Below are positions 2,766 to 15,202 of a stretch of 16,714 bases of DNA, piece by piece. This DNA is from Lentisphaeria bacterium (GTDB lineage: Bacteria; Verrucomicrobiota; Lentisphaeria; Victivallales; UBA1829). The stretch is taken from NCBI GenBank assembly GCA_017456805.1, contig JAFTIQ010000056.1, forward strand, positions 1 to 16,714, in the 5' to 3' direction. A model generated the notes under the pieces. It saw only the letters and a list, made by a program, of their open reading frames with translations. It did no database searches and was not told where the DNA came from. Each line of letters begins with the position of its first letter. Position 1 is the stretch's first letter. The translations under genes and the position numbers were made by a program.

Positions 2766-5264
2766 TTAAGCACCTTCCGCAATATCGAACAAACATGGAA
2801 CATCAATTTCGTTTTCGGCTTGAACAAGATAATTGCATCCATCGTGCCAATATCCACTGTTCAACTCACATCCAATTCCATATCTACCCATTTTTACGGC
2901 GCAATATGGTACAGTCATGATCCCGCCGAACGGGTCAAAAACAATCTCACCCGGATTGCTCCAACGTTCAATCACCCTTTCCACAATATCAAGCTGAAGC
3001 GGACAGATATGCTTTTCCAGATTTTTCTTTGCCTGTTCCCCGTTCAAAGTCCTCATTCTGACAACATCATCCCAAACCCATGGAGTTCTGGCAGGAATCC
3101 GGAATGTTTCAAATGTTGCCGGCAACCTCCCGCGCTTTTCCATCGTTTCAGCTGCTTCAAGATGCTGTTCGTAACTGTAAACAGAAACTGCTGCCCGTTC
3201 GTTGAAAAGCTCATTTACACCTTCAAGATCCAGCATGGAAAGCTCTTCCGCTGTCAAAAGACGATTCCCGGAGCTGTTCCACTTTGCTCTTGCATCGATT
3301 TGCCAGCGACCTCTGCTGTATTCCGCTTTGCTGTGGACAACAGGGAAATCCGCGTATGCTTTGGTACAATCAGTTGGAAGTTTACGGAACAACAGAAGGT
3401 ATTCCGGACACCCGACCCCCATCTTCGTCTGGTCCTTGCAACATTCCGTCCAACCCAAACGATATGTTTGATTGTTTTCTCTGACAACATCTGTTTCGAT
3501 TGTAATTCTTCCGAAAAATTGAAATCCATGTTTTCTGAAATGGAATACAGTTTCATCACTGAACGGGTCAACAGTCGGCATCCCTGTTCCGGTGACATTC
3601 CCAAACAGGATTCTGTCTTTGACATGAATTGCCGCAACTCTTCCCGGCTTCAATACCCGGAGAAGCTCATCTGTCAGAAAATCCATCTGTTCAAAGAATT
3701 TCTCATTATTTGTATTGTGTCCGAAATCATTGTAATTCGCGGAATATTCGTAATGATTGCTGAACGGAATACTGGAACAGATCAGATCAACAGAGTTATC
3801 TTCCATTCTCTGGCACTCTTCCACACAATCATTGTTTACCGCGGTATAATGTTTCCCTTCGGAAACTTTTCTTTCACAGCCGATACTTCTTCTCAATCCG
3901 GCTCTGATGGAATCAGCAGAAAGACCATATCTCTGAATGATCTCTGCCATTGTTTCCGTCAGAGCATCGTGCATTTTCCACTTCTTCAAAAGTGTTGCTT
4001 TGATCTCTTCTTCGGAATCCGCATAAATAATGTGGATCGTAACTTCTTTCGTTTGCAAAAACCTGTAAATACGGTGAATTGCCTGAATGAAATCGTTGAA
4101 CTGGTAATTGATCCCAACAAAAATCGCATCAGAACAATGCCGCTGAAAATTGCATCCGGATCCGGAAAGTTCCGGTTTTGTCGCAAACAATCTGATTTTT
4201 CCATTGCTGAAATCGATTACGCTCTGTTCCCGTTCTTCAATATCCTGTTCCCCGTAAATAGCAACCGTTTCAGGCAATGCCTTACAAATTGCTTCACGCT
4301 CCAGCTCCAGATGATGCCACAAAAGAAAATTCTTTTCCGGATTCTCATCAACGATCTCTTTCATTTTTGCAACCCGGAGCGGAATTGTAGCTTTCTTTTC
4401 CCGTGCCGCATCCGGCAAAGATTGTGCGGCATTGTGAAACATCTCCTGCTGTCCGTTTCTCCGGTCAATTTTCACATTTTTCAGGTGATCAATATTCACT
4501 CTGTGCCATTTTACTTTGAACGGCGGCAAATCGTACCCATCGTCAGAATATCCAAGATCGGAAGGTTTATTCAGGAAAATCGCCCAGCTCGACACCCAAA
4601 GCCAGAACTCTTTTTCTTTGTGCGGATAAAGTGTAAGATCACCCGCTTTTTCGCTGTTCCGCTGAAAAAATCTTGTCAACGCTTCTCCGGTGTCCATCAC
4701 TCCCAAAAATCCAGCATAATGAATCAGTTCTTTCAACTCGTTCGGGGAAGGTGTCGCAGTCGCAACAAATTTATATTTTACATCCCTGCAGAGCGGCAGA
4801 AACTCTTGATATGTCTTTGTCCCGAACCCCCGCAAAATAGACGCTTCATCCAAAGAAACCGCTTCAAATTCTGCCGGATCAAGCTGACCGTCTCTCACAC
4901 GTTCATAGTTGGAAATGAAATAATTCCCTTCCATTTCTGAAAGCTCTTTATTGGTCCGGACATATTGCAAATTGATTCCGATCATCTTTCCATCCCGGAC
5001 AAACTCTTGTTTTACTCCCAGCGGTGCAACAATCAAAGTTTTCTTTCCGGTAACTCTGACAACCTGCTGCATAATTGCAAGCTGAATCAGACTTTTCCCA
5101 AGACCGAACTTTGCGAAAATAGCTCGTTGACCACCTTTCAATGCCCAGCGTACAATATCTTTCTGATGCGGTTTCAGGCATTCCGGAAGTTCCTTTTCTT
5201 CCACCTCAAACCCGCCAAACGGGGAAACCGCAATTTTCTTCTCAATGAAATCTCTGTAATTCAT
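2766..5264 (-). CDS. SNF2-like helicase fused to N4/N6 DNA methyltransferase, 832 aa
   Basis: Two enzymes in one chain. Residues 30-440 form a superfamily 2 helicase of SNF2 type: Walker A FGLGKS (53-58), a D-E box SLDEAS (137-142), motif III TATPSPN (169-175), and motif VI-like QAIHRIYR (394-401). Residues 470-815 form a beta-class amino-methyltransferase: motif IV is SSIPF (497-501) followed by NHYEYS, and motif I is the later DPFGG (777-781) with GCELNSGYW beyond it. The IV-before-I order is diagnostic of that class. Similar fusions exist in temperate phages; the likely role is modifying phage DNA against restriction, possibly with helicase-assisted access. The ATG at 5264 has AAGGG 7 bases upstream. 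No nuclease partner is adjacent, so it looks like an orphan methylase rather than a restriction system. Confidence 0.92.
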   Translation of the reverse strand: MNYRDFIEKKIAVSPFGGFEVEEKELPECLKPHQKDIVRWALKGGQRAIFAKFGLGKSLIQLAIMQQVVRVTGKKTLIVAPLGVKQEFVRDGKMIGINLQYVRTNKELSEMEGNYFISNYERVRDGQLDPAEFEAVSLDEASILRGFGTKTYQEFLPLCRDVKYKFVATATPSPNELKELIHYAGFLGVMDTGEALTRFFQRNSEKAGDLTLYPHKEKEFWLWVSSWAIFLNKPSDLGYSDDGYDLPPFKVKWHRVNIDHLKNVKIDRRNGQQEMFHNAAQSLPDAAREKKATIPLRVAKMKEIVDENPEKNFLLWHHLELEREAICKALPETVAIYGEQDIEEREQSVIDFSNGKIRLFATKPELSGSGCNFQRHCSDAIFVGINYQFNDFIQAIHRIYRFLQTKEVTIHIIYADSEEEIKATLLKKWKMHDALTETMAEIIQRYGLSADSIRAGLRRSIGCERKVSEGKHYTAVNNDCVEECQRMEDNSVDLICSSIPFSNHYEYSANYNDFGHNTNNEKFFEQMDFLTDELLRVLKPGRVAAIHVKDRILFGNVTGTGMPTVDPFSDETVFHFRKHGFQFFGRITIETDVVRENNQTYRLGWTECCKDQTKMGVGCPEYLLLFRKLPTDCTKAYADFPVVHSKAEYSRGRWQIDARAKWNSSGNRLLTAEELSMLDLEGVNELFNERAAVSVYSYEQHLEAAETMEKRGRLPATFETFRIPARTPWVWDDVVRMRTLNGEQAKKNLEKHICPLQLDIVERVIERWSNPGEIVFDPFGGIMTVPYCAVKMGRYGIGCELNSGYWHDGCNYLVQAENEIDVPCLFDIAEGA

Positions 5265-5679: not shown

Positions 5680-5715
5680 GTCCGACCTGTCAGAACCGTC
5701 CGACAAGTCAAATTT
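5680..5715 (+). repeat. 9-bp tandem repeat tract, locus 1
   Basis: Four consecutive 9-base units beginning GTC: GTCCGACCT, GTCAGAACC, GTCCGACAA, GTCAAATTT. The tract covers the stop codon region of the helicase loader gene and the spacer after it. The same GTC-x-GA-type 9-mer in tandem recurs at 9674-9709 and 10426-10452. GTCCGAC and GTCGGAC are reverse complements, so the orientation is ambiguous. Confidence 0.7.
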
Positions 5716-6484
5716 TCTCTTTTTCTTCAACTGTCGTTTCTTTGACAGTTGCAATTTTGAAATTCTCATTCAAACGACGTTCTACCGGGTCAGGATCATC
5801 AAACAAAGCTTTGATTGCTCCCTCATAAAAGTTCCCGATGATCCAGAGCTTACATCCGATCTCGCCGGAATAAACCCCATCGATCAGGGAGAAATAAAGC
5901 TCTTGCTCTGTGGCTGTCATCGCACTGGTTCCCTTCTTCCCGACCAGTTCATCAACGATCACAAGATCATTTCCGCCCAGCCGGTAAAGAAACAGCTCAC
6001 CGCCATTCACGTTCGAATCACACTTTGCATTGATGTATTCCGCCGTCAGTTTCCGCCGGCTGTAATACTTCACATACTTGCCTTCGTTCAGCAGAAACTT
6101 TGCCACATAACAAGCCGATGATGTTTTTCCGGTTCCGGTCTTTCCGCCAATCAGCAAATTATTTGCCCGGTTCCGGTAAACCCACACCGCAGCATGTCTG
6201 ACATACGGATCTTCCATATTCCGGAAGTTCAGCGGAATCCCGCTGTTCTCCATCCGCATTTCAGCCACATCTGCCAATTCTGCTTTCCGTTTCCGTTCTT
6301 CTTCCGCCTTGAGTTCTGCTTTGTATTTATCGCTGCACTCCTGGCAATAAACGGCATCATACGCTTTTTTGAGCAACTCCGCCCAAGAAGGATCATCACC
6401 GACATCGTAAGGTGCATTGAACTCTTTCCCGCATTCCGGACAGCTGAGAATAGCCATCCCATTTTCCAAGATTTCTTTCACCAT
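5708..6484 (-). CDS. DnaC-like AAA+ helicase loader with N-terminal zinc ribbon, 258 aa
   Basis: An ATPase of the DnaC/IstB family, expected to load the replicative helicase at the phage origin. The N-terminus has a zinc ribbon (CPEC at 15-18, CQEC at 47-50), as in many phage DnaC-like loaders. It is followed by a Lys/Glu-rich helix, Walker A GGKTGTGKTS (113-122), Walker B DLVIVDEL (173-180), sensor-1 IIGNF (215-219) and an arginine-finger-like DPVERRLNEN (232-241). The frame is open to 6547, but the start at 6484 is preferred: it follows the stop of the replication gene by one base (TGACATG) and has AAGGAAGGG about 8 bases upstream. This pairing with the replication gene is the standard phage arrangement. 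Confidence 0.93.
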   Translation of the reverse strand: MVKEILENGMAILSCPECGKEFNAPYDVGDDPSWAELLKKAYDAVYCQECSDKYKAELKAEEERKRKAELADVAEMRMENSGIPLNFRNMEDPYVRHAAVWVYRNRANNLLIGGKTGTGKTSSACYVAKFLLNEGKYVKYYSRRKLTAEYINAKCDSNVNGGELFLYRLGGNDLVIVDELVGKKGTSAMTATEQELYFSLIDGVYSGEIGCKLWIIGNFYEGAIKALFDDPDPVERRLNENFKIATVKETTVEEKEKI

Positions 6485-6485
6485 G

Positions 6486-7166
6486 TCAGAACCCTTCCTT
6501 CCTGCGTTCATTCTGTTTCTGTTCGCGTTCTCTGAGTTCATTATCACGGCGTAAGCACCATTTCTTGATATCTGCTCTGATTTGAGATAGAGAATTCATA
6601 GCTTTATCCTGACCGTTGGCTTTCCAGCCTTTACTTTCACGGTCGGCAAGATACATCTCAGCATCCCACGGATCCATCACACATCCAGACTGACTTGCAA
6701 GGCAAACGATCTTTTCCGGAGTGTCCGGATAGCGGAAATCTCGCGCGCTATTTATATCACCCACATTCATTGTGGGTACATTCTTATTCTCAATCTTAAT
6801 CTTATTCTTATTATTATTGTTGTTGACATCCGTTAACGCCTGTTGACATCCGTTGACATCCGTTAACATCTGTTGATGTCTGTTAGCAGATTCAAGTCCG
6901 GCATTGCGGCACTTTTCAACTTTCTGAGAATAATTGTCACGAACAGAATCAATTTGGTTTTTGATCATGATCCAGCCAAATTCAAGATGCGGTGGAATAA
7001 CAACGTCCTCTCCGTTCATTCCATAAGCCACGATCGCGCTTAAAATCGTTCTTACATCCTTCAGAGACGTAAGGGACAACAAAGCTTCAATCTGGTTCTT
7101 GAACATAACTACGGAGTTAAATTCTTTGTTCTTCTTACCCATTCTTTTTCCACTTCTCCCCGCCAT
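6486..7166 (-). CDS. Phage replication protein, DUF6291-type, 226 aa
   Basis: Probable origin-binding or replisome-organising protein. Residues 14-90 match the DUF6291 pattern: FNSVVMFKNQIEALLSL, an L-AIVAYGMNGE segment, then IKNQIDSVRDNYSQKVEKCRNAG. The C-terminus (about 145-205) matches the domain that ends many phage replication proteins (P-D-T-P-E-K-I, M-DPWDAEMYLADRESKGW, IRADIKKWC). Between them is a low-complexity Asn/Gln/Lys linker that is encoded by 10-bp iterons (see 6821-6890). Its position directly before the loader supports the role. The start is uncertain: ATG 7166 has AGAGGA about 14 bases upstream and lies in a hairpin loop, while ATG 7142 has GTGGA 6 bases upstream. Confidence 0.85.
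   Translation of the reverse strand: MAGRSGKRMGKKNKEFNSVVMFKNQIEALLSLTSLKDVRTILSAIVAYGMNGEDVVIPPHLEFGWIMIKNQIDSVRDNYSQKVEKCRNAGLESANRHQQMLTDVNGCQQALTDVNNNNNKNKIKIENKNVPTMNVGDINSARDFRYPDTPEKIVCLASQSGCVMDPWDAEMYLADRESKGWKANGQDKAMNSLSQIRADIKKWCLRRDNELREREQKQNERRKEGF
6779..6890. repeat. Iteron array plus AT-rich stretch, candidate replication origin
   Basis: Seven consecutive 10-bp units run from 6821 to 6890, with consensus YGTTRACATC: three TGTTGACATC or CGTTGACATC copies, two CGTTAAC copies and two more diverged units. They are immediately flanked at 6779-6820 by 42 bases that are nearly all A/T (ATTCTTATT-type, with TTATTATTATTG at the edge). A 10-base period equals one helical turn and does not match the codon period, so the repeat is not explained by a protein repeat. 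Iterons plus an unwinding region inside the replication gene recall lambda ori within gene O. Function is inferred. Confidence 0.7.
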
Positions 7167-7192: not shown

Positions 7193-8269
7193 TTAGATCA
7201 AATCACCGTCTTTTTTGCTTCCGTTATTCGCATTTTCACGCCAATCAATAATAGCGTTGATCATGGAATTGGTACGGTTCCGGATATATTCATCCCATTC
7301 CGCAGGAAGTTCCGCAGAATCCATATCCACCTTCAGATTTCTGCTCTCAAGCCACTGTTTGACATCCAGCAAATTCAAAGGCACATCGTTCCGCTTGAAA
7401 TATCCTGCCAGGTAATCTGACACAGCTTCTTTTTCATCTGAGGTCTGTTCTGTCTCTGCAACCGTTTCACGAGTGACTTCTTCTGTTTTGCCATTCTGTT
7501 TTCCCTTTTTGATTTTGTTCAAAACTTCTTCTGATTTACTCTTTGCCTTACCTTCGGGCAAAGGTTCAGTTTTAACCACTTCCACATCAATAATTTCACC
7601 GTCCGCAAGTTCTTCTTTGACGTACATGCCTCCAAGAATGCCGGGGAAATACTTTCTTGCGAATCTTGCGATTGCACGGTAGAAAATCTGAAGCTGCGGA
7701 TCTTCAGCCCAAAGTGTACTGTTCCGTGTAAGGCACTGTGTCAGCATCAGCTTGTATTCAATCTTGTGTCCGGTCTTTGTTTCGGCTCTCAGAATAATGC
7801 CGAGGTCTGTTTCATCGGAAGATTTCCAAGACGGAACTTTATATTTCTTACCCTGAGAGTTCTGCCGTTCCTCAAACTTTCCGAGGATCTTTGACCAATC
7901 ACCGATATATTCATCTTCGATAAAGTGATCTTTCACCGGAGCAAACTTGTCCATGATTGCCTTGACAGTCTTTCCTTCAAGAGAAAGCGGAGCATCAGCG
8001 GAAACTTTGTAAATTCCAGGAGCAAGCAAAGCGGGCATCATTTCCCACTGATACGCAAGCTGCTGAAGCGCAAAGCATCCGTAAACATCTCCACGGAACA
8101 ATGGCGGCATCATCGGAGATTTTGCCATCAATGCCGCATTCTGCATGAAATACTGGTTCAACTTCTCGTCATACATCAACCGTTCCAAGCGGTTCTGCAT
8201 TTCTGCCGGAATTGCAAGCGGTTGACTTTCCGCTTGCACCATCGCTGTGTTACTTGTTTCAGTGTTCAT
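7193..8269 (-). CDS. recT: RecT-family single-strand annealing protein, 358 aa
   Basis: A phage recombination protein expected to coat and anneal single-stranded DNA produced by the exonuclease encoded just upstream. Family evidence: the core SPMMPPLFRGDVYGCFALQQ (51-70), then the diagnostic segment at 187-221 where a Trp is followed by EDP, a basic helix, and KYFPGILGGMYVKEEL. This W-x-x-D-P...R-x-F-P-x-x-L-x-G-x-Y-x-x-E-E-L motif is the conserved end of RecT domains. Residues 230-285 are a Lys/Glu/Thr-rich linker, followed by an extra 70-residue C-terminal domain that standard RecT (about 270 aa) lacks. The start at 8269 has AAGGATGG about 9 bases upstream. The exonuclease and annealing protein form the usual two-gene recombination module. 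Confidence 0.9.
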   Translation of the reverse strand: MNTETSNTAMVQAESQPLAIPAEMQNRLERLMYDEKLNQYFMQNAALMAKSPMMPPLFRGDVYGCFALQQLAYQWEMMPALLAPGIYKVSADAPLSLEGKTVKAIMDKFAPVKDHFIEDEYIGDWSKILGKFEERQNSQGKKYKVPSWKSSDETDLGIILRAETKTGHKIEYKLMLTQCLTRNSTLWAEDPQLQIFYRAIARFARKYFPGILGGMYVKEELADGEIIDVEVVKTEPLPEGKAKSKSEEVLNKIKKGKQNGKTEEVTRETVAETEQTSDEKEAVSDYLAGYFKRNDVPLNLLDVKQWLESRNLKVDMDSAELPAEWDEYIRNRTNSMINAIIDWRENANNGSKKDGDLI

Positions 8270-8293: not shown

Positions 8294-9241
8294 TTACCGC
8301 AATCTCAAGATTCGGGAACCGGATCTGGTCATTACTTCGCTGGTGTATTCCATGATAACATCGTTTGTTAAAGTTCCCGGCGGACAGTTCTCTCTTGCAA
8401 GCCGTTCCCAATCCGTAACCTTTGCATAAGTATCTTTACTCCGCTTGAATGTCAGCAGCACATTGCCATCGGAATCTTTGATCGTATCGGCATTTTCGCA
8501 AAAGAGCTTCACCTCTTTTTCCATTCCTTCAATTTCTTTTTTCAAACCGGAAAAACTCTTTTTCGCAATTTGCAACATCTGGATGATACCGCAGATTTCT
8601 CCCTCGGCAACTTTGATCTCTCCCTCATTGCCCGGAAAGATGCTTGCAAGATCATCATAGATCGTGATTTGCGGCGGCATATCAGCCACAACACAATCAT
8701 TCCAGAACTTCACACATTCAGCAGCTTGGAATTCAGCCAGCTCTTCATTGTAAGGAATCGAATACCACCGGAATGTATTACCTCCAATCAGAACCGCCAG
8801 GTAAGCATGACGATACCCGGTAACATACATATAGTGCTGTACTTGGGTCATATAGTATTCAGGAATCTGATCTGTTCCGCTTTGTCCCCAATCGGACAAA
8901 GAAAACGCATTGCAAGTCTTGCATTCCAGAATAGCTTTTTCACCGACCACATAGCGGTCAATGTTGGCAACCAAACAGGAATGTACTTTATGACGGTACA
9001 TATTGTTCCGTCTCTGAACCTGTTTCCCGGTCACTCTTGCAAATTCATCCGCAATGGAAGGCTCCAGCAGGATTCCCCATCTCTGATAGGAATTTTCTTC
9101 TTTCTGTTCCGATCTGCCGGTCTTATCTTTCCAAATGTCATAAGCGGTTTTCCATCTACTGATCCCAAGAATCGCAGCAACATCAGATCCTCCGATCCCG
9201 GATTTCCGATCTTCAAGGAATTGTTCTCTTGTTCTTTCCAT
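8294..9241 (-). CDS. YqaJ-type (lambda-exonuclease-like) recombinase nuclease, 315 aa
   Basis: A PD-(D/E)xK exonuclease of the YqaJ/lambda-exo class, which resects double-stranded DNA 5'-3' to feed the annealing protein. Motifs: GIGGSD (15-20), LEP (59-61), NIDR (94-97, active-site Asp 95), LECKT (105-109, Glu 106 and Lys 108), then the QVQHYMYVTG helix (133-142). All catalytic positions are intact. The C-terminal third (220-315) is a coiled-coil-prone helix plus the ending typical of YqaJ proteins. The GTG at 9247 is rejected since the GGGGGG ribosome site would be only two bases away; it is 8 bases from the ATG at 9241. The stop of the preceding gene lies two bases upstream. Confidence 0.93.
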   Translation of the reverse strand: MERTREQFLEDRKSGIGGSDVAAILGISRWKTAYDIWKDKTGRSEQKEENSYQRWGILLEPSIADEFARVTGKQVQRRNNMYRHKVHSCLVANIDRYVVGEKAILECKTCNAFSLSDWGQSGTDQIPEYYMTQVQHYMYVTGYRHAYLAVLIGGNTFRWYSIPYNEELAEFQAAECVKFWNDCVVADMPPQITIYDDLASIFPGNEGEIKVAEGEICGIIQMLQIAKKSFSGLKKEIEGMEKEVKLFCENADTIKDSDGNVLLTFKRSKDTYAKVTDWERLARENCPPGTLTNDVIMEYTSEVMTRSGSRILRLR

Positions 9242-9243
9242 GA

Positions 9244-9492
9244 TCACATCCCCCCAATCGCCGCTTTTACCGCTTCATTGACCGCTCTCTGGAAGGTAAC
9301 TCCTTTGAGCACTTCTTCAATATTCATTCCGAGCGGTTCACAAATTCTAACCCAACGTTCATACGTCCAGAATGGATCGGGCTCTTTTTCATCAAGAACA
9401 GCAATTCTTCCATATGAGAAGTCAGCACTTCTCCCGGACGCAATATCTTCCAGGAAGATTTTTTTTTGAACTGGATTTATAAAATGTCTCAT
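9244..9492 (-). CDS. Conserved hypothetical protein, 82 aa
   Basis: A small soluble protein beginning MRHFINPVQKKIFLEDIASG. It contains a Trp-rich turn (PDPFWTYERWVRICEPLG) and ends with a hydrophobic helix and GGM. I do not recognise the family. The frame is open to 9516, but the start at 9492 is preferred because GGGAGGG sits 7 bases upstream and because its ATG overlaps the stop of the 54-aa membrane protein gene as ATGA. It is directly upstream of the exonuclease gene (two-base gap), so it is probably co-translated with the recombination module and could be an accessory factor. Confidence 0.75.
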   Translation of the reverse strand: MRHFINPVQKKIFLEDIASGRSADFSYGRIAVLDEKEPDPFWTYERWVRICEPLGMNIEEVLKGVTFQRAVNEAVKAAIGGM

Positions 9493-11324: not shown

Positions 11325-12284
11325 TCAAACCAATTCTTCCGGATGGATCCCGGAAATTTCTTCAAAGATTTTGTCATCGAAGTTCGGAATTGCTTTCAGT
11401 TTTTTCAACTGATCTTGCCACCCATCATCTTTTTTCGCATTTTCAAAAGATTCCCGGAATGCTTCTTTGTAGTCTTTCTCCTTCAAGTATCCTCCAATAG
11501 TATCGCATTCCGGATGATCGTTCTTTTCCGCATCTGTCATACACGCGACATAAACCCATTCAACCAACTCAAAGTAAAGAAATGCCGGAAAATCAATATC
11601 CTGCTTTTTGGTAAGTTTATTAAAACAGAAAAATTGATCCTGTTCTTCCGTGTTAAAGTATCCGGTGTTCCAGTTTCCGGTGTTACAGTCTCCGGTGTTA
11701 CAGTCTCCGGTGTTACAGTCTCCGGTGTTCCAGTTTCCGGTGTTACAGTCTCCGGTGTTCCAGTTTCCGGTGTTCCAGTTTCCGGTGTTACAGTCTCCGG
11801 TGTTCCAGTTTCCGGTGTTACAGTCTCCGGTGTTACAGTCTCCGGTGTTCCAGTTTCCGGTGTTCCAGTTTCCGGTGTTACAGTCTCCGGTGTTACAGTC
11901 TCCGGTGTTACAGTCTCCGGTGTTCCAGTTTCCGGTGTTACAGTCTCCGGTGTTACAGTCTCCGGTGTTACAGAGATTTTGAACTTCTTCCCAATTCAGT
12001 TCTTCGACAATTTCAATATATTCAGCGCAAAGTTTATTGTTATCGGATTCTTTCAGAACCGTTCCCCAAACTTTAACTTTTGCAACCCTTGTGTTTTCGC
12101 TGTCGTAATCGTAATAATTAAAGCAATCAGCAAGTTTTTCGCATGCGTGAAACCCTGAATTACAGAGTTCAATTTTTCCATCGTGGTGATAAATTTTCCC
12201 GACTTCATACTGAAAACCTTTACATTTCCAGTCCGATTCAAACGCCTTAAACGCCTGAATCGCATTTTCTTTTTCAATCTTCAT
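11325..12284 (-). CDS. DUF7666-type protein with NTGxx pentapeptide repeats, 319 aa
   Basis: Three parts. Residues 1-98 match the DUF7666 pattern: AFKAF, CKGFQYEVGKIY, then C-x-S-GFHACE and a hydrophobic V-x-VWG strand. Residues 104-213 are about 22 pentapeptide units of form N-T-G-x-x. They come in essentially two words, NTGDC (12) and NTGNW (8) in the core, ending NTGYF and a degenerate unit, as in the Pentapeptide_2 family (PF01469), which folds as a right-handed beta-helix. The tail (214-319), with MTDAEK-HPE-IGGYLKEKDYKEAF, is also conserved in phage relatives. The ATG at 12284 has AAGGTGA 7 bases upstream. Its role is unknown; a DNA-mimic or binding scaffold is possible. It lies early, between two membrane-protein genes and the RHH gene. 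Confidence 0.88.
   Translation of the reverse strand: MKIEKENAIQAFKAFESDWKCKGFQYEVGKIYHHDGKIELCNSGFHACEKLADCFNYYDYDSENTRVAKVKVWGTVLKESDNNKLCAEYIEIVEELNWEEVQNLCNTGDCNTGDCNTGNWNTGDCNTGDCNTGDCNTGNWNTGNWNTGDCNTGDCNTGNWNTGDCNTGNWNTGNWNTGDCNTGNWNTGDCNTGDCNTGDCNTGNWNTGYFNTEEQDQFFCFNKLTKKQDIDFPAFLYFELVEWVYVACMTDAEKNDHPECDTIGGYLKEKDYKEAFRESFENAKKDDGWQDQLKKLKAIPNFDDKIFEEISGIHPEELV
11661..11971 (-). repeat. 15-bp tandem repeat tract, two unit types
   Basis: About 20 perfect-length 15-base units. On the plus strand the words are GTGTTACAGTCTCCG and GTGTTCCAGTTTCCG; they differ at two sites that always change together. Read leftward along the protein the order is DC DC NW DC DC DC NW NW DC DC NW DC NW NW DC NW DC DC DC NW. 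The unit keeps the reading frame, so copy number can change without frameshift. Confidence 0.93.
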
Positions 12285-14101: not shown

Positions 14102-15202
14102 ATGGCACTCCGCAAAATAGGAAAATACTGGCATTGTTACTTCCGGGATCTGGAAGGGAAACTTCGGACTCTTTCCTCCCATGAAACGGATAAATCGGAA
14201 GCCAGAAAATTTGAACAGCAAATGATGAAGCTGGTTGATTCTCGTCGTTCCCACCGTAATCTGATGCGTTTTTTATCACCTGAAGATCGCATGAAAGCGG
14301 AACTTATCGAAGCGGAAATTAAAGCAAAATCTCCGGAAGTTTCATCTTCTCCACGCTCCGGATTAAAGCTCTCTGCAATGTTTGATCTTGCAAGTAAACG
14401 GCGAAAACTTGGAACCTCCCACAAATACGCTTGGGATCGTTTTTTACAGGAAGTTCCATATAAATACGCAAAAGAAATCACACCTAAAATTGCCCTTGAA
14501 TATTTGAACAAAAACTACTCTTCCGGAAATGGAAAAAGTTTCAATAACGTAAAATCGTGCTTGAACACCATATTCCGCTGTTGCCTTGTTGAAGCAAATC
14601 TTTCTGCATCGCCATTTGGGGCTATTCTGAATCGATCTGTCATAGATATAAATAGCCACCGGAATATGACTGGAGAAGAATTTGATATTATCTTTTCAAA
14701 AGCAAATAAATATACACAGATTATGATGATGCTTTCCAGATGGACGGCGCAACGTCTTGAAACTTGTGCAAGAATAACGCCTGGAATGCTTGATTTCGAA
14801 AGAAAAGTATTTGTTATCCAGCCTGGAAAGACAAAACGTTTCAAAAAATGGGTCTGCTGTCCGATATTTCCGCAGCTTGAGAACTATATCAAACCGATTT
14901 TGGAAAACTGCCCAGATCCGGAAACTCCGATAGTTGAAAATTTCAATTATTGTGGGAACAAAAATTTTTCTTGGAACTTTTCTGGATTACTGAAAAAATT
15001 ACAAATCCCTGATACAGAAGAAGGAAGTATCTGTTTTCACTCGATCCGTGGAACAGCAATAACCTGGATGAAAGAAAATGGAATCAAAGGGGAAGAACTC
15101 CGAGCAATTACCGGACATACCTCAAATGAAGTTGAGGATATATATGCCAGAGATATTGCAACGATCAGCAAGATAGCAAACACATTTTCAAAAAATGGTT
15201 AG
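14102..15202 (+). CDS. int: Tyrosine recombinase (phage integrase), 366 aa
   Basis: Integrates and excises the element at the adjacent attachment site. The N-terminal 60 residues begin MALRKIGKYWHCYFRDLEGK, an arm-binding-like domain; a core-binding helical domain spans 88-180. Catalytic residues are all present: Arg 218 (TAQRLE), Lys 243 (PGKTKR), His 313 and Arg 316 (HSIRG), His 339 (GHTS) and the nucleophile Tyr 348 (IYARD). The length is normal for the family. It starts two bases after the stop of the AT-rich gene and no ribosome site is visible before the ATG, so translation may depend on coupling to that gene. It reads directly toward the tRNA-derived attachment site. Confidence 0.95.
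   Translation: MALRKIGKYWHCYFRDLEGKLRTLSSHETDKSEARKFEQQMMKLVDSRRSHRNLMRFLSPEDRMKAELIEAEIKAKSPEVSSSPRSGLKLSAMFDLASKRRKLGTSHKYAWDRFLQEVPYKYAKEITPKIALEYLNKNYSSGNGKSFNNVKSCLNTIFRCCLVEANLSASPFGAILNRSVIDINSHRNMTGEEFDIIFSKANKYTQIMMMLSRWTAQRLETCARITPGMLDFERKVFVIQPGKTKRFKKWVCCPIFPQLENYIKPILENCPDPETPIVENFNYCGNKNFSWNFSGLLKKLQIPDTEEGSICFHSIRGTAITWMKENGIKGEELRAITGHTSNEVEDIYARDIATISKIANTFSKNG

Follow-up and report, generated by a model that had tools for sequence, protein, structure and literature searches.

A candidate phage replication origin of contiguous 10-bp iterons inside a DUF6291 gene

We analysed a 16.7-kb stretch of DNA (16,714 nucleotides, referred to as the window) and found seven contiguous 10-bp repeats inside a DUF6291 gene. 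We consider it probable (roughly 0.8) that this region is a phage replication origin lying within the gene of its own initiator, with iterons to which the initiator would bind, a hexamer tract that would melt and a helicase loader that would assist. The computations gave four results bearing on this: the repeats, a family-wide 10-bp period beyond coding needs, a hexamer tract, and an association between a protein motif and the repeat sequence.

The repeat array and the gene that contains it

The features discussed below are as follows (coordinates of the window):
6486..7166, minus strand: DUF6291 gene (226 aa), proposed replication initiator (PF19808)
6879..6932, minus strand: proposed recognition segment, residues 79-96 (YSQKVEKCRNAGLESANR), placed by the motif position in relatives
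6821..6890, minus strand: seven contiguous 10-bp iterons, coding-strand consensus ATGTYAACRG (TRF, pattern search)
6780..6824, minus strand: AT-rich 6-bp repeat tract, C-poor on the coding strand, encoding NNNNNKNKIKIENKN, proposed unwinding element
5708..6547, minus strand: gene of a DnaC/IstB-like AAA helicase loader (PF01695, E 2.6e-6; phrog_50, E 7.6e-15)
7193..8269, minus strand: RecT-like annealing protein, upstream in the same gene run (Pfam/PHROGs)
8294..9247, minus strand: YqaJ/RecE-like exonuclease, upstream in the same gene run (Pfam/PHROGs)
14102-15202: integrase (Pfam)
Residues ~13-100, ~102-143 and ~144-226 of the DUF6291 protein: N-terminal helical domain, disordered linker and C-terminal helical domain, as predicted by AlphaFold2

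On the coding strand, the seven units read CTGCTAACAG, ACATCAACAG, ATGTTAACGG, ATGTCAACGG, ATGTCAACAG, GCGTTAACGG and ATGTCAACAA (in a register one base lower, 6820-6889), and the AAC core is identical in 7/7 of them. They lie inside the gene exactly as the sequence-only reading had listed them, at 6821-6890 in plus-strand coordinates, and TRF called the array unaided at periods 10 and 20. Within the array, 40 of 60 comparisons at lag 10 are identities. The best lag-10 stretch was matched in 0/2000 codon-order shuffles and 1/5000 synonymous-codon shuffles. With a best 60-bp score of 41, against 29 elsewhere, the array is also the strongest lag-10 spot of the window. Exact matches to the units occur in the array only; the pattern search found seven one-mismatch matches scattered outside it, without array arrangement, and no second array of the iteron unit in the 16.7 kb.

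The gene is of the DUF6291 type, as had been proposed, with a match to PF19808 (E 6.1e-9) that scores 36.4 bits against the Pfam gathering threshold of 27.2. The Pfam entry is without function. Among the sequence profiles searched, DUF6291 was the only Pfam match up to E 0.01 and no O-type replication profile matched the window protein, while the PHROGs search pointed to two families without known function and, weakly, to a head-tail one. No PDB chain matched the DUF6291 profile up to E 1. A first AlphaFold2 model built from 10 sequences was poor (mean pLDDT 62) and gave no match in Foldseek. The second model, built from 39 sequences (mean pLDDT 69.5), gave no convincing Foldseek match and none that would point to a DNA-binding fold for the N-terminal domain; we claim no kinship from the calmodulin, Mediator and other rows of the structure search. 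In the second model, block-mean pLDDT is 83-91 for residues 21-80, below 50 for residues 102-143 and 60-89 for residues 141-226. The array lies some 275 bp into the coding sequence and encodes residues 93-116, with which a long predicted helix runs out at low confidence and the predicted disordered stretch begins. These residues fall between the two better predicted domains. DUF6291 occurs, for example, in 55/394 genomes sampled from one bacterial order, and a search started from a single member found it in 133 phage records. None of the papers searched names DUF6291, and the matches listed, which include work on lambda-type systems and on SPP1, had nothing on a DUF6291 origin; as most subscription papers were outside the reach of the search, an earlier description may exist.

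Regarding the sequence bordering the array, the sequence-only reading had described a 42-base A/T run (6779-6820). The border is AT-rich, but it is a degenerate 6-bp repeat and not a pure run. The A+T content of the tract is 81%, compared with 58% for the gene and 58% for the window, and an AT-rich tract beside repeats is also part of origins of the lambda/SPP1 type. We propose that the hexamer tract serves as the unwinding element.

The genes on the same strand are ordered YqaJ-type exonuclease, RecT-type annealing protein, DUF6291 and DnaC/IstB-like loader. The gene following DUF6291, taken for a helicase loader from the letters alone, is DnaC/IstB-like by both Pfam and PHROGs, and its start overlaps the end of the DUF6291 gene; an adjacent loader is a further trait of in-gene origins of the lambda/SPP1 type. 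These neighbours bear on a different explanation, by which the array would be a site bound by DUF6291 for copy control or segregation and not a start site. Short direct repeats also serve in such roles, and our tests by themselves indicate a likely binding site only. We nevertheless regard a control or partition site as very improbable, since the neighbours are recombination and helicase-loading genes and no partition protein was found among the window proteins scanned (nine with Pfam, seven with PHROGs).

Period and hexamer tract among relatives

Three protein searches yielded 38 relatives (P0001-P0038), which were judged by back-translation only. No match was obtained from viral contigs (searched with the window protein, alignments A1, A3 and A4, the window YqaJ protein and the L001 protein), from genome contigs (searched with alignment A1) or from phages (searched with the window protein, P0011 and the window loader). 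The linkers of 39 rows, window included, were back-translated and compared with residue shuffling as the null. Lag 10 was the strongest, with a mean z of 2.58, and the means were 1.85 at lag 20, 1.70 at lag 6, 0.18 at lag 9 and 0.09 at lag 11. The eight closest relatives (P0001-P0008) all showed lag-10 z between 2.8 and 7.8, and the linkers of P0032, P0035 and P0037 peaked at lag 11 instead of 10. The sequence-only reading had named homologues without the 10-bp periodicity as one finding that would refute it. The periodicity was kept in 8/8 of the closest relatives and in the family mean, which supports that reading, but the period is not universal: lag-10 z exceeded 2 in 22 of the 39 rows and not in the other 17.

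At the DNA level, loci were collected from phage and plasmid records and from a genome search with PF19808, which was positive in 4/398 of a phylum sample and in 2/21, 46/297 and 7/13 in three families. The exploratory set comprised 71 ORFs, of which 65 were left after the removal of 6 near-duplicates. L042, L021 and L039 were then set aside because the domain end was misplaced or the ORF too short, which left 62. For the held-out set, 73 ORFs less 3 duplicates and 14 that were too short gave 56; the plan had called for genomes not yet used, but only the ORFs are all new, as 23 of 40 stretches fetched for this set came from genomes already sampled, several of them with another ORF in the exploratory set.

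In the 62 exploratory linkers, mean z was 1.65 at lag 10, 1.22 at lag 20, 1.12 at lag 30 and 2.16 at lag 6, with z above 3 in 13, 8, 6 and 22 ORFs, respectively. Lags 9 and 11 had means of 0.25 and -0.36, and no lag exceeded a mean z of 0.8 in the N-domain (n=62) or in the C-terminal part (n=49), which served as controls. As 10 is not a multiple of three, peptide repeats alone cannot create a 10-bp period. Under the synonymous-codon test on the 62 ORFs, z reached 7.8 at lag 10 and 7.6 at lag 20. High values were also seen at most multiples of 3, a pattern expected of dipeptide repeats and in keeping with the hexamer tract. Outside these, z peaked at lags 14 (3.1) and 29 (3.0), lag 31 stood at -3.4, and lags 7, 8, 11, 13, 17, 19, 22, 23 and 25 lay between -2.3 and 1.3; in the N-domain, z was no higher than 2.9.

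The held-out ORFs (n=56) showed a mean z of 1.30 at lag 10, with z above 3 in 10/56, and 0.84 at lag 20, under the mark of 1 set beforehand. Lags 7, 8, 11 and 13 had means from -0.42 to 0.01, and the N-domain had 0.36 at lag 10. The synonymous z was 8.0 at lag 10 and 3.6 at lag 20, and was also raised at lags 5 (4.4), 22 (3.5) and 29 (4.4), with 3.3 at lag 5 in the N-domain. Taken individually, about four in five ORFs have no z above 3 at lag 10. A single universal iteron sequence was rejected, as chains of ATGNNAAC (at least 2, at 10-bp steps, rare in shuffles) occurred in 6/39 proteins only.

The hexamer tract, defined as lag-6 identity of at least 0.7 within the linker region, was present in 43 of the 62 exploratory ORFs. 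Its AT content was above that of its own ORF in 40/43 (0.69 vs 0.54), and C on the coding strand was low (0.07 vs 0.20). Among the 19 ORFs in which both signals are strong, the tract started more than 20 nt past the iteron stretch in 15. The held-out set had a tract in 30/56, AT-richer in 30/30 and with C at 0.11 vs 0.23, while the N-domain control had it in 0/56. The encoded dipeptides vary (DK, EK, NV, SV, SD, DT, GQ, GN), and this difference points to the DNA as the conserved entity. Two Flavobacterium phages, L005 (gene 1995-2633) and L006 (1995-2621), share the same repeat-coding linker, but one has a hexamer tract longer by 4 residues (12 bp), which suggests that tract length is free to vary.

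Protein motif and repeat sequence

In the exploratory set, short basic motifs at the end of the N-domain accompanied particular repeat sequences. At least two ATRYNAA sites were found in 10/13 ORFs of the RW class vs 2/49 others, at least two AAACC sites in 9/20 of the GGRP class vs 0/42 others, and TCAAC in 4/5 of the SAxKR class vs 3/57. The pairing of a G.AK class with AGCAAA was discarded (2/4 vs 18/58, p 0.39). Spacings between sites, for motifs picked after inspection, were 10 in 14/34 and 20 in 5/34 for ATRYNAA, and 9 in 6/24, 20 in 5/24 and 10 in 4/24 for AAACC. The GGRPxK motif resembles an AT-hook core, and in this class it accompanies A-rich AAACC repeats.

Because the motifs had been chosen by eye, rules were fixed beforehand and then tested on the ORFs fetched later (n=56), with Fisher p-values that are too small, as the ORFs share ancestry and are not independent events. 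By the pre-set rule, RW went with at least two ATRCNAA in 5/8 vs 7/48 (p 0.008); the looser ATRYNAA, taken from the exploratory set and outside the pre-set rule, gave 7/8 vs 8/48 (p 1.9e-4). GGRP went with at least two AAACC in 9/13 vs 4/43 (p 4.9e-5) and with AAAACC in 9/13 vs 6/43 (p 2.9e-4). For SAxKR with TCAAC, the held-out set gave 0/1. Four of the held-out ORFs classed as 'other' have RW after a residue that the regex disallowed; examined post hoc, L092 and L097 carry at least two ATRCNAA and L090 and L099 none.

Back-translation of the protein relatives gave the same pairing, with classes that were defined after seeing the proteins, that include several near-identical members and that leave 7/39 unclassified. 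ATGCAAA reached z of at least 3 in 10/12 RW proteins and z of at least 2 in 0/20 SAxKR proteins, while TCAAC reached z of at least 2 in 14/20 SAxKR and 0/12 RW proteins; P0034 (151 aa, without the N-domain) was placed in RW by its C-terminal match. The window protein falls into SAxKR under a looser rule and into 'other' under the exploratory and held-out regex. Its TCAAC z is 1.8; values of 0.1-0.4 were obtained for P0001-P0003, the proteins closest to it, whose cores are partly TTAAC. By this analogy, residues 79-96 may be the recognition segment of the window protein.

P0026 and P0028 do not differ at all in residues 1-58, and their C-domain windows match at 70-100%, but identity is 5-30% in the windows between. 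In one of them an RW motif occurs with ATGCAAA-compatible sites (z 3.9), and in the other SAxKR occurs with TCAAC-compatible sites (z 2.6). The same break was seen in P0024/P0025 and P0011/P0015 and, more weakly, between the window protein and P0004. Judging from these comparisons, the basic motif at the N-domain end and the adjoining repeat sequence tend to change together in relatives.

These data also bear on the idea that the repeats have no function as sites and are a by-product of slippage in a freely varying linker, or simply a flexible polar linker. The linker is predicted to be disordered, and the tract length does vary between the close phages L005 and L006 (by 4 residues). However, adding or losing one 10-bp unit shifts the reading frame, and slippage would be expected to favour lengths divisible by 3. 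Moreover, the period stays at 10 despite different unit sequences, the excess persists at synonymous sites, and the repeat sequence goes with the protein motif in the held-out data. We therefore judge slippage or mere linker flexibility to be improbable.

Gene neighbourhoods, known origins and a proposed mechanism

A primase, helicase loader or SSB gene adjoins DUF6291 or lies near it in 7 of 12 annotated loci (L004, L005, L006, L009, L013, L017, L020): a primase or primase/helicase downstream in L005, L006 and L009 (L005 and L006 being close kin), a helicase loader upstream in L013 and an SSB gene upstream in L004, L017 and L020. The other five (L010, L011, L012, L014, L018) have none of these nearby, and RecT, Erf or RecE genes are found at three of them. 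The submitters of L009, L014 and L020 named the DUF6291 product 'replication protein'. In L026 (genome G094), two DUF6291 ORFs are adjacent on the same strand.

Such neighbours are relevant to the possibility that the units are an operator through which DUF6291 controls its own operon. A binding site of this kind would likewise yield DNA-level repeats that change with the protein, one protein can serve as both regulator and initiator, and the seven one-mismatch matches elsewhere in the window could be counted in its favour. An operator nevertheless seems unlikely to us: those matches are scattered and the exact ones are confined to the array, which lies about 275 bp into the coding sequence and not at a promoter position, an AT-rich hexamer tract is common beside the array in the family, and replication genes stand near 7/12 of the annotated relatives.

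The origin reading draws on phages with a comparable layout. In lambda, iterons and an AT-rich tract lie in the middle of gene O, with the replication gene P adjoining (annotation; PMC7466680), and the parallel drawn earlier between this DUF6291 gene and lambda ori fits in its layout, that is, iterons and an AT-rich tract within the proposed initiator gene and a replication gene next to it. Lambda differs in having four 18-bp iterons, annotated at steps of 20, 24 and 23 bp, in place of seven contiguous 10-bp units with a 6-bp tract, and the window protein is not of the O family by the profiles searched. Applied to lambda gene O as a control, our lag analysis gave top lags of 24 (z 3.3), 23 (2.5) and 25 and 20 (1.9), in a stretch that was placed by the annotated iterons and is therefore not a blind control. 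In SPP1, as described in PMC6316719, the initiator binds direct repeats beside an AT-rich unwinding element, oriL lies within gene 38 and the phage has its own helicase loader. The likeness to SPP1 oriL (gp38, loader gp39) consists in the in-gene repeats and AT-rich tract and in the loader, gp38 being likened by description; SPP1 differs in its second origin, oriR, whereas the window has no second array in 16.7 kb. The window has direct repeats within a gene, as in both phages, and we infer the role of that gene as initiator.

Two other types of iterons are of interest here. In iteron plasmid origins, each iteron spans roughly two helical turns (17-22 bp), which differs from the period of 10 seen in the window and family-wide. 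The alpha protein of phage P4 is a phage initiator that reads ten-base iterons, a length like that of the units described here; alpha is a primase-helicase and its iterons lie outside its own gene.

Our best reading, by analogy, is that the region would work like lambda ori and SPP1 oriL, with an initiator of another family, contiguous iterons of one helical turn, a hexamer tract and a link between motif and repeats. The DUF6291 protein would bind the seven units side by side, and, as there is one unit per helical turn, all copies would sit on one face of the DNA. The bound copies would bend or wrap the DNA, after which the adjoining AT-rich tract would melt. The DnaC-like loader from the next gene would then put the host helicase on the melted tract, guided by the C-terminal domain of DUF6291. 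Sequence specificity would reside in the short basic segment that ends the N-terminal domain. As this segment is encoded directly beside its sites, we propose that the protein key and its DNA lock would be passed on together, as a single cassette. GC skew was dropped as an origin marker, since it follows gene direction and is uninformative on the origin.

A broader version of the origin reading, to which we give about even odds, sees in each DUF6291 gene a self-contained initiator-origin cassette whose code can be read. Other phage initiator families would share the layout with a period of their own, so that the protein sequence would allow phage origins to be predicted. Here the N-domain would end in a basic segment some 20 residues long that would read 10-bp sites encoded in the next ~100 bases, and a single short piece of DNA would carry both specificity and target in an exchange. 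We do not place this version higher because the RW rule was weaker in its pre-set form than in its looser form, and lag 20 fell short of the value required. Lin1244_N (20-21 bp) would be another initiator family with its own period. Like DUF6291, Lin1244_N / DUF4373 has repeats inside the linker of a phage protein, and in L019 a DnaB-like helicase gene comes next. In the Lin1244_N set (L145-L172), the earlier linker window gave no peak (27 ORFs), and the later one (26 ORFs) gave mean z of 1.97 at lag 21, 1.47 at lag 20, 1.17 at lag 5 and 1.09 at lag 10. The lag-10 signal accompanies lag 5 and is probably a 5-bp tract. The strongest period of 20-21 (with 5 and 10 also raised) contrasts with 10 and 6 in DUF6291, and because the leading periods differ, the lag analysis does not simply yield 10 in every case.

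If the origin reading is true, elements with DUF6291 now have both an initiator and an origin proposed for them. Through the link between motif and repeats, natural pairs would allow a direct test of an old question, the joint change of specificity in phage initiators and origins. A disordered linker that encodes repeats at one or two helical turns and then an AT-rich tract of short period could serve as a sign of other in-gene origins.

Two further genes of the window may be mentioned. An 832-aa protein (2766-5264, minus strand) combines a helicase-like part with an N4/N6 DNA methylase part, and a DUF7666 protein (11325-12284, minus strand) carries a pentapeptide repeat array (CNTGD/WNTGN) encoded by 21.6 copies of a 15-bp tandem repeat.
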